A stretch of DNA of 64,000 nt from Bacillus cereus (lineage in GTDB: Bacteria; Bacillota; Bacilli; Bacillales; Bacillaceae_G), in the NCBI RefSeq assembly GCF_002584535.1, contig NZ_NUOT01000052.1:19840-83839 (forward strand). Reading direction: 5' to 3'. This document shows positions 52,474 to 53,614 of this stretch, piece by piece. A model generated the notes under the pieces. The model did not search any database and had not been told where the DNA came from. It was given only the letters and a program-made list of their open reading frames with translations. Made by a program: the position numbers and the translations under genes. Positions within the stretch are counted from its first letter, which is position 1. The number at the start of each line of letters is the position of its first letter.

Positions 52474-52740
52474 ATGGAAGAACGTTTCTTTCTTTACGAC
52501 GATACAGTCGATACAAAAACGCGTTTCGTTAGCTTTATGGGAGAAAATGAGCGCCACGATTTAGCGCTTTTATACTCCGATCGTCATTACGGTAAAACAA
52601 TCGTCCTTGATATGCAACGCAATAAATTTGCAATTATCGGCACTGACGATTTAAACGAACCAGGCTACTTAGAGCACGCTTTTTCTGTATCTGAAGAAAT
52701 TGCAGAAGAACTGCGCTCATTCTTATTCGAACTTATATAG
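52474..52740 (+). CDS. DUF3055 (SAV0927 family) protein
   Basis: An 88-residue soluble acidic protein: FFLYDDTVDTKTRFVSFMGE, HYGKTIVLDMQRNKFAIIGT and YLEHAFSVSEEIAEELRSFL. These match the DUF3055/SAV0927 family of small Firmicutes proteins, function unknown. AAAGGAG lies 11 bases before the ATG. It is 18 bases after glpX and shares its transcript. Confidence 0.87.
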   Translation: MEERFFLYDDTVDTKTRFVSFMGENERHDLALLYSDRHYGKTIVLDMQRNKFAIIGTDDLNEPGYLEHAFSVSEEIAEELRSFLFELI

Positions 52741-52747
52741 TATTATG

Positions 52748-52778
52748 CACCAGCTATTATAGTAGCTGGTGTTTTTTT
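52748..52778 (+). terminator. Terminator of the glpX operon
   Basis: 9-bp perfect stem (52748-52756 with 52763-52771) and T7. Confidence 0.9.
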
Positions 52779-52790
52779 ACATAATTTATT

Positions 52791-52818
52791 TTGAATTTTC
52801 AATCTTTCGTGTTATACT
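52791..52818 (+). promoter_or_regulatory. Promoter of the leader RNA
   Basis: TTGAAT (52791-52796), 16 bases, TATACT (52813-52818), just after the glpX-operon terminator. Transcription would begin near 52825. Confidence 0.6.
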
Positions 52819-52858
52819 TATGAGCAAATCTATTTGGAAGAAAGGACGTCTACTACGT

Positions 52859-52879
52859 ATGCCAACATTTACTTTGTAA
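52859..52879 (+). CDS. Leader peptide uORF1 (MPTFTL)
   Basis: Six codons plus TAA, AAAGGA 12 bases upstream. Its TAA overlaps the ATG of the next small ORF (TAATG). It lies at the 5' arm of the long RNA hairpin, as expected of a stalling leader peptide. Translation is unproven. Confidence 0.5.
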   Translation: MPTFTL

Positions 52880-52986
52880 TGGAGCAGCAATTGAATAGCA
52901 TTACTCTCAAAAAAGCTACATGCTTTTTCAAGGGAGTAGTCTGTTCATTTCCCATTGCAAAGGAACGTAACGCATCTGTAGTATGA
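52879..52986 (+). CDS. Second leader ORF, 35 residues
   Basis: Starts at the ATG overlapping the uORF1 stop and ends with TGA 8 bases before the terminator stem. The peptide includes SITLKKATCFFKGVVCSF and KERNASVV. The ORF spans the whole RNA rod, so ribosomes on it would unfold the structure. It may be translated by coupling. I do not recognise the peptide. Confidence 0.45.
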   Translation: MEQQLNSITLKKATCFFKGVVCSFPIAKERNASVV

Positions 52987-52994
52987 TGTTTTAC

Positions 52995-53027
52995 GGAGGT
53001 TCCTATAAGGGGAACCTCCTTTTATTT
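52995..53027 (+). terminator. Intrinsic terminator of the leader
   Basis: 9-bp GC-rich perfect stem (52995-53003 with 53011-53019), 7-base loop, T-rich tail, about 90 bases before the next start codon. Confidence 0.9.
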
Positions 53028-53113
53028 TTGTCTATTTCTTCTTTATTCATACTGCAAGACATCCAAATAGCTGTATTACGTTCCTTTACCCAATATATAC
53101 GAGGTGAAGGAAA

Positions 53114-53614
53114 ATGCAGAAAGTACAACTTTCTTGGAATTTATATGAGAATGAATTTGAAACGACAGTCGAAAAGCATTGTAAAAATTGCGGGCATACC
53201 ACCCTTTTTACTGATACGAACATTCGTAGACATAACGCAAACGGAAAGAACATTTACCGCTTTGCGATTTATAAATGCCAAAAAGGGCATACGTGGAATA
53301 AGAAACTCCACATTTATAAGTCGTTTTCTGAACATGTCGAAACAATCGATGTGTTTCAACAGAAACAAGCTGAAACAACGACTACCATCTCGATTATGCA
53401 ATATAAAGAAAATGGCACGACAGAAATAGCCATTGTATTAGAAACAGTCGTGGGCTCCCATCGTATTGATAAAGCACTAGCTGCATACATTTCAGATTTG
53501 AGCCGTACGGCAATTGTAGACAAAATCAAAAATGGATACATCCAGTTGAATGGTCAGAAGATGAAATCAAATACAACACTTTCTGAAGGTGACCTCATTT
53601 CAATTTGCTTGTAA
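53114..53614 (+). CDS. Zinc-ribbon-like plus S4-domain RNA-binding protein
   Basis: A 166-residue protein. The N-terminal part has a CKNCGHTTLF knuckle (residues 23-32) and KCQKGHTWNKK near 56-66, a possible zinc site. The last 50 residues fit an S4 domain: DKALAAYISDLSRTAIVDKI, then GYIQLNGQKMKSNTTLSEGD, as in RluD-type pseudouridine synthases and RqcP/YlmH-like ribosome-associated proteins. There is no catalytic domain. It probably binds rRNA or tRNA. GAGGTGAAGG lies upstream of the ATG. The attenuator-like leader suggests induction by impaired translation. Confidence 0.8.
   Translation: MQKVQLSWNLYENEFETTVEKHCKNCGHTTLFTDTNIRRHNANGKNIYRFAIYKCQKGHTWNKKLHIYKSFSEHVETIDVFQQKQAETTTTISIMQYKENGTTEIAIVLETVVGSHRIDKALAAYISDLSRTAIVDKIKNGYIQLNGQKMKSNTTLSEGDLISICL

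Follow-up and report, generated by a model that had tools for sequence, protein, structure and literature searches.

A widespread leader family of Bacilli, upstream of a zinc-ribbon/S4 gene in Bacillus cereus, with the architecture of a ribosome-mediated attenuator

In the vmlR leader of Bacillus subtilis, an upstream open reading frame (uORF) sits within a bulge of a rod that acts as anti-antiterminator, and a drug-stalled ribosome is the trigger (PMC9226507). The B. subtilis tlrB (yxjB) leader combines a leader peptide with polymerase pausing and with attenuation of both transcription and translation (PMC6851288). The uORFs of cplR, VmlR2 and LsaA (MR[I/M], MK[L/Q] and MAGN) are thought to sense drugs that act on early elongation, and masking of the Shine–Dalgarno (SD) sequence has been shown for cplR (PMC10201436). 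In Bacillales, the uORFC-6-1 motif before hflX encodes an Arg-Leu-Arg peptide and has a structure lying wholly downstream of the start codon (PMC8632094). Here we describe a leader of about 290 nucleotides (nt) in a 64,000-nt stretch of B. cereus contig NZ_NUOT01000052.1 (assembly GCF_002584535.1), hereafter the window. The leader (52825–53113) lies in the gap upstream of a gene for a DUF1062-like zinc-ribbon/S4 protein, and a terminator-like site after the glpX operon (52747–52772) forms the upstream border of this gap. We consider it very probable, from sequence comparison, that the leader is a ribosome-mediated attenuator of the vmlR, tlrB and cplR kind, with two locks, one on transcription and one on translation. 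A preliminary description of this DNA had proposed a translation-sensing attenuator in front of the zinc-ribbon/S4 gene, and the idea gains support from a uORF conserved in frame, from covarying helices and from re-use of the leader before other genes.

The uORF, MPTFTL*, consists of six codons plus a stop. We found the uORF pattern in 63 of 64 leaders (the window and 63 loci, at least nine of which are refetches of the same genomes), L063 being the exception. Among 72 parsed leaders of DUF1062-S4 genes, the distance from ATG to TAA was 18 nt in 58, 15 nt in 13 and 16 nt in one (L125). Codon 2 encoded proline in all 72 (CCA in 69, CCT in 2 and CCC in 1), the last codon was TTG in 51 and CTG in 21, and five uORFs started with TTG. 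The consensus is MPxxxL*, or MPxxL* where a whole codon is missing; six-codon variants include MPTTTL, MPTFNL, MPNFTL, MPTYTL and MPSNSL, and those one codon shorter are MPTYL, MPAYL, MPTNL, MPANL and MPTSL. Because codons are gained or lost in frame, codon 2 changes synonymously and TTG can replace the start codon, this pattern argues for translation of the uORF. Purine runs resembling GAAAGGA precede the uORF in the aligned leaders. The 72-leader set leaves out L063 (no uORF), L036 (upper rod deleted, unparsed) and L132; L043, L046, L050, L055, L056, L057 and L062 were dropped as refetched genomes; and L101, L102, L104–L106, L108, L111, L113, L117, L119, L120, L122 and L131 are absent as identical proteins or refetches. 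L190–L194 came after this set and lie outside it, and set A2 omits L024, L036 and L047 among others.

The strong evidence for the leader is comparative. In a swap test, each leader's helix arm was paired (RNAduplex, 10,000 permutations) with its own partner or with those of other leaders, in a set of 25 representatives with less than 85% identity; the test shows preference for the own partner and does not model the tree. Control pairings had 675 and 7711 of 10,000 permutations as good. By comparison, none of 10,000 was as low for helix A in a refined test (−12.0 native versus −7.6 swapped), nor for the rod helices H1 (−9.8 versus −7.3), H2 and H3 (−14.8 versus −11.1), the alternative pairing D (−17.6 versus −13.0) or the SD hairpin (−11.3 versus −9.5). 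Helix B, also in a refined test, had 4 of 10,000. RNAalifold on 51 leaders recovered H2, in which three pairs had both partners changed (in 5, 17 and 8 sequences). In homologous leaders the first uORF is conserved and the helices covary, signals whose absence the preliminary description had named as a ground for refutation. The predicted rod itself is very stable: the minimum free energy (MFE) of RNA 52825–53030 is −76.6 kcal/mol, compared with −41.3 ± 4.0 in 200 dinucleotide shuffles, none of which was as good (z −8.86). This agrees with the rod-like fold first described, although the single 17-bp helix said to close it is instead H1, with 8 + 7 bp, one bulge and a further 4 bp (Table 1). A second ORF, said to be coupled to the first by TAATG, did not hold up and was dismissed: in the 25 representatives it encodes 2 to 36 amino acids with no peptide in common (only MA in the Brevibacillus locus L005). 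TAATGG is an arm of H2 and not a conserved ORF start.

Table 1. Positions of the leader elements and of the downstream gene in the window
Feature	Position	Strand	Basis or partner
Putative sigma-A promoter (TTGAAT, 16 nt, TGtTATACT)	52791..52818	+	Consensus match only
Helix A, 5′ arm (CTATTTGGA), near predicted RNA 5′ end	52830..52838	+	9 bp with 53062–53070
SD-like GAAAGGA of the uORF	52840..52846	+	Sequence
H1, outer rod helix, 5′ arm	52843..52862	+	MFE partner 52972–52992
uORF MPTFTL*	52859..52879	+	Conserved across DUF1062-S4 leaders
H2, 5′ arm (uORF end and TAATGG)	52872..52882	+	11 bp with 52952–52962
H3, upper rod hairpin	52892..52947	+	Swap test
Predicted elemental RNA-polymerase pause (G−10, Y−1, G+1), GGGAGTAGTCTG	52932..52943	+	Pattern match
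H2, 3′ arm	52952..52962	+	RNAalifold, swap test
D, 5′ arm (AAAGGAACGTAA), switch strand	52959..52970	+	12 bp with 53076–53087
E, AGGAAC, candidate antiterminator arm	52961..52966	+	6 bp with GTTCCT 52999–53004
Helix B, 5′ arm	52977..52985	+	Partner 53048–53056; overlaps H1 outer arm in window
Intrinsic terminator, 10 bp then T tract	52995..53029	+	Terminator scan
Helix B, 3′ arm	53048..53056	+	Refined swap test
Helix A, 3′ arm (TCCAAATAG)	53062..53070	+	Swap test
D, 3′ arm and SD sequesterer (TTACGTTCCTTTACC)	53076..53090	+	Pairs with 52959–52970 or 53103–53112
SD region of main gene (AGGTGAAGG core), sequestered	53102..53112	+	SD hairpin swap test
Main gene, DUF1062-like zinc-ribbon and S4 protein, 166 amino acids	53114..53614	+	Pfam, alignment, fold

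The arms compete for partners. In the resting rod the 5′ arm of D adjoins or lies inside the H1 and H2 arms, with part of it paired in H2; alternatively it pairs with the SD sequesterer. D comprises 12 Watson–Crick pairs in the window and at least 8 pairs in all 25 representatives, and the SD hairpin (53081–53090 with 53103–53112, 10 bp) was counted in 21 of 25. As both use 53081–53087, D and the SD hairpin are mutually exclusive. Helix A, which has 8 or more pairs in 20 of the 25, crosses D, and the two together would form a pseudoknot. The antiterminator first proposed, AGGAAC with GTTCCT (pairing E), does exist as six pairs. Its comparative support is weaker (29 of 10,000 permutations did as well), and equilibrium folding favours the finished terminator. 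On this evidence, the best-supported alternative partner of the rod 3′ arm is the SD sequesterer at 53076–53087 and not the terminator.

A conserved GGGAnnnGTnYG precedes the rod 3′ arm. It fits the elemental pause signal, whose described elements are G−10, Y−1 and G+1 (PMC12288461), and we treat it as a predicted pause. The pattern GGN6TNYG lies 9–13 nt upstream of the CATTAC 3′ arm in 23 of the 25 representatives. The pause pattern is also present in 12 of 21 leaders before other genes; of the nine leaders without it, four lack the upper rod and at least two (L170 and L173) come from a wrongly cut segment.

Sequence comparison shows the uORF, the helices, pairing D and the re-use of the leader before other genes. 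The switch model below is inferred where it concerns transcription of the leader, ribosome stalling and termination, as well as the polymerase pause and the inducer. By default, the uORF would be translated and the ribosome released quickly, so that the rod of H1, H2 and H3 forms; transcription would then end at the terminator, and the SD of any read-through mRNA would be locked by 53081–53090. On induction, a ribosome held on the uORF would keep the 5′ strand of H1 and H2 open. Once freed, the D 5′ arm would first encounter the terminator 5′ arm (52999–53004) and next, with the SD not yet transcribed, the SD sequesterer, so that the SD stays accessible. A polymerase pausing at about 52942 would allow ribosome loading ahead of synthesis of the 3′ arm. 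Helix A connects the RNA 5′ end with the stretch upstream of the SD sequesterer and may serve as a scaffold or protect the 5′ end. The inducer may be a translation inhibitor, or else some other condition that slows early elongation.

We modelled the ribosome as a footprint mask at the uORF start or stop codon, with a control mask as comparison. When the window RNA was cut just upstream of the SD and helix A was imposed, the probability of D was 0.00 when the RNA was free, 0.88 with the stop codon masked and 0.87 with the start codon masked. Under the same settings, D exceeded 0.4 in 12 of the 25 representatives when free, in 21 when end-masked and in all 25 when start-masked. In the full read-through RNA with helix A imposed, the SD became more open by over 0.1 in 5 of 25 with the stop mask, in 14 of 25 with the start mask and in none with the control mask. 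Pairing E formed under the uORF masks (0.89 or 0.71) if the RNA was truncated at 53012.

Several observations weigh against this model. In the full read-through RNA at equilibrium, the SD became more open by over 0.05 in just 2 of 25 representatives with the stop mask and 5 of 25 with the start mask, and in the window, even with helix A imposed, SD opening rises only from 0.17 to 0.19 or 0.26. The completed terminator outcompetes E at equilibrium, so antitermination must be kinetic or proceed via another pairing. As equilibrium SD opening is weak and E is lost, the model rests on the order of synthesis or on the A + D pseudoknot, and its terminator part is the least certain. The search for promoters gave one match compared with 3.6 in shuffles, which is not significant by itself. 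Among the leaders, the distant orthologue L063 has no such leader, the L125 uORF is shifted (MPIHTVMG*) and the L189 uORF has no stop.

The leader is not confined to one species group or one gene. A protein search of a species-genome collection gave 40 related loci, in Lysinibacillus, Brevibacillus, Fictibacillus, Neobacillus, Rossellomorea, Pseudalkalibacillus, Paenibacillus, Thermoactinomycetaceae and others. Against 397 genomes of one order, the protein matched 208, with 23 near-full-length (E 4e-33 or better); we ignored the other 185, which were mostly S4-only, with a few weak, stop-broken matches reaching the N-terminal part. The leader DNA matched 29 of 397 genomes of nearly the same set: 20 of the 23 near-full-length genomes, the search centre (G004), which has the gene, and eight with chance-like pieces of 25–32 nt. 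In other genera, leader DNA identity was 68–77% (blastn pieces of at least 133 nt) and that of the proteins 38–54%. No main-gene homologues were found on plasmids or viral contigs, and no leader DNA was found on plasmids. Covariance models, which sampled genomes with strict filters and miss weak leaders, extended these results. Model R1 matched 33 of 398 Bacilli genomes, and of 30 loci read, 25 lay before the zinc-ribbon/S4 gene, four before a GNAT-pentapeptide gene and one before an unidentified ORF. The wider model R2 matched 54 of 344 genomes (60 places) in the order of G624, which includes Paenibacillus, and 8 of 150 in the order of G001, two of them weakly. Model R3 matched 2 of 299 genomes of the phylum, namely the search centre and one already known.

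We then sorted 96 partly redundant loci (L101–L196) by their best same-strand tblastn match downstream. The zinc-ribbon/S4 gene was the commonest in the sample (36), followed by tandem-GNAT or pentapeptide-type GNATs (32), SDR genes (11) and other GNATs (8). An ABC ATPase, a FusB-family EF-G-binding protein, a class-C-beta-lactamase-like hydrolase and an M29 peptidase occurred once each, and five loci were unclassified. The FusB-family protein lies above Pfam cut-offs and below the NCBI FusB/C/D/F cut-offs. As GNAT and SDR genes are common, any link to resistance depends chiefly on the FusB-family case and the architecture. The uORFs before other genes read MPDFS, MPTTL, MPAYL, MAGTL, MAVACL, MPANQ and similar, so that the family consensus is M-P/A-x-x-(x)-L*, with S or Q as the last residue in some. 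The short frame is closed in 55 of 56 listed leaders before other genes (partly redundant), L189 being the one without a stop; an entry MATEM for L170 was a pattern artefact, and this leader reads MAGTL. Of 13 loci before other genes that could be evaluated, seven (L136, L150, L164, L168, L170, L174 and L176) showed a D-like pairing of −14 kcal/mol or lower, a count made with no swap control; L172, not evaluable, is outside it. For L156, one of the six without this pairing, the script took the wrong arm, and by eye the arm GGAACGCAAG is fully complementary to CTTGCGTTCC before the SD.

Some loci depart from the common arrangement. Four leaders before a GNAT gene (L174, L178, L181 and L183) are minimal: most or all of the upper rod is lost, but the ATTACAAGG strand survives, as do the uORF and the helix arm at the uORF end. 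In L186, an SDR-type leader is separated from the start of its SDR gene by an ORF for a group II intron-type reverse transcriptase. In L169, a leader with MPTTL* stands upstream of a gene interrupted by stops, which we take to be phosphotransferase-like. The genomes G993, G926, G941, G1033 and G1053 each have two or three leader matches, with different genes downstream where read; L189, with its uORF stop lost, is one of the copies in G993. L195 and L196 are weak partial matches to the apical GGGAGnAGTCTG hairpin and have no uORF.

This spread bears on the other ways in which the leader could be explained. The S4 protein could bind the rod and repress its own synthesis, in the manner of a ribosomal-protein leader, with the uORF incidental. 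An RNA-binding S4 domain in the product and a very stable rod would suit such autogenous control; however, the same leader precedes GNAT, SDR, ABC, serine-hydrolase and FusB-family genes, in whose products Pfam found no S4, and the uORF stays in frame through codon indels, so we regard autogenous control as quite unlikely. The uORF could instead sense charged tRNA (Thr, Leu or Pro) in a trp-type attenuator, to which its shortness and the invariant proline of the 72 DUF1062-S4 leaders would point. The middle codons are highly variable, however, codon 2 can be Ala (MAGTL), and no downstream family belongs to amino-acid biosynthesis, all of which makes this explanation highly improbable.

Promoter match, stable fold and terminator would also make up a complete unit, which could be a stand-alone small RNA of 200 nt that lies before the gene incidentally. 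This we find hardly probable, given that helices A, B and D join the rod region to sequence past the terminator and covary, and that nearly all loci read have a same-strand gene just downstream (exceptions include L186 and L169). A riboswitch or other known RNA family was dismissed: covariance searches of Rfam (riboswitch, T-box and protein leaders) returned nothing for the leader at thresholds up to E 1, nor for 10 related loci at up to E 0.5. The sole Rfam row, atoC at 52687–52778 (E 0.21), lies upstream of the leader and below the gathering score. We favour ribosome-mediated attenuation, to which we return in comparison with the described systems.

The features predicted here, namely a short uORF in an anti-antiterminator fold, an intrinsic terminator and a mutually exclusive pairing that would free the SD, are those of the attenuator kind. 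Membership of the leader in this kind is well supported, save for the antiterminator and for induction by a drug. With vmlR the leader shares a rod with a uORF, an intrinsic terminator, an SD-sequestering hairpin, an SD-freeing alternative pairing and predicted polymerase pausing, a comparison made on architecture and not on leader sequence. The vmlR uORF is MIN (MDN, MDK or MRK in relatives) and precedes an ABCF ATPase gene, whereas here the uORF is MPxx(x)L, there is an extra 5′-end helix A and several gene families lie downstream. Like tlrB, the leader has a leader peptide, predicted pausing and proposed dual attenuation; tlrB differs in its macrolide RYR arrest motif, NusG-dependent pause and rRNA methylase gene, whereas the peptide here has no RYR and the site is of the GGGAnnnGTnYG type. 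The cplR, VmlR2 and LsaA leaders are similar in their very short uORFs and, for cplR, in SD masking, but all precede ABCF genes and no stated consensus equals MPxx(x)L, although MAG is common to the MAGTL of SDR-type leaders and the MAGN of LsaA. The uORFC-6-1 motif is likewise a Bacillales uORF element found by comparison, and hflX is a ribosome-rescue gene; its peptide motif and its structure entirely past the start codon set it apart. The logic proposed here is the same as that of the vmlR, cplR and tlrB leaders, which were dissected experimentally. We found no description of this leader family in the open-licence literature. We conclude that it is most probably an attenuator of known kind, and a distinct, widespread leader family.

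The downstream protein carries C23, C26, C55 and H59, a putative zinc ribbon, and an RRHNANGKNIY-type stretch, all invariant or nearly so in the family. The S4 domain assigned to it in the preliminary description was borne out at its C terminus: each of the 27 family members has a PF01479 match at E ≤ 1, that of the window protein (E 0.0034) being below the Pfam cut-off, and the domain matches RluD, Hsp15 and related proteins in sequence and fold. For DUF1062 (PF06353), the window protein scores 13.3 bits against a cut-off of 23, and matches at E ≤ 1 come from 20 of 27 members; L124, a distant orthologue that shares this leader, is a clear member at 132.9 bits. The product probably acts on ribosomes and would bind them or their rRNA. 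Its association with this leader makes the DUF1062-like zinc-ribbon/S4 protein a candidate ribosome-protection factor.

Sequences matching the expression signals named in the preliminary description are present. The promoter, TTGAAT (52791–52796) with an extended −10 TATACT (52813–52818), is the sole promoter-like match in 52600–53600. The terminator is predicted as a hairpin at 52995–53019 followed by the T tract, and the scan found six terminator-like sites compared with 0.7 in shuffles. A second leader copy in the window was dismissed, as the other window matches of models R2 and R3 were never better than E 0.22.

The wider proposition is that this is an undescribed, widespread attenuator family of Bacilli that serves in a general way to sense ribosomes stalled early in elongation and has been shuffled among protective genes of unrelated kinds, and that the DUF1062-type zinc-ribbon/S4 protein is an unrecognized ribosome-protection or rescue factor; taken as a whole, we hold its chances to be evenly balanced. 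If true, the leader family would mark genes induced on ribosome stalling in Bacillus- and Paenibacillus-type bacteria, several of which are not known for resistance or protection. The DUF1062/S4 protein would gain a testable ribosome role, the first lead to its function. The covariance model together with the uORF would serve as a search key for inducible protection genes, and would offer a route to which translation inhibitor is sensed by a uORF of 5–6 codons with Pro or Ala at codon 2.
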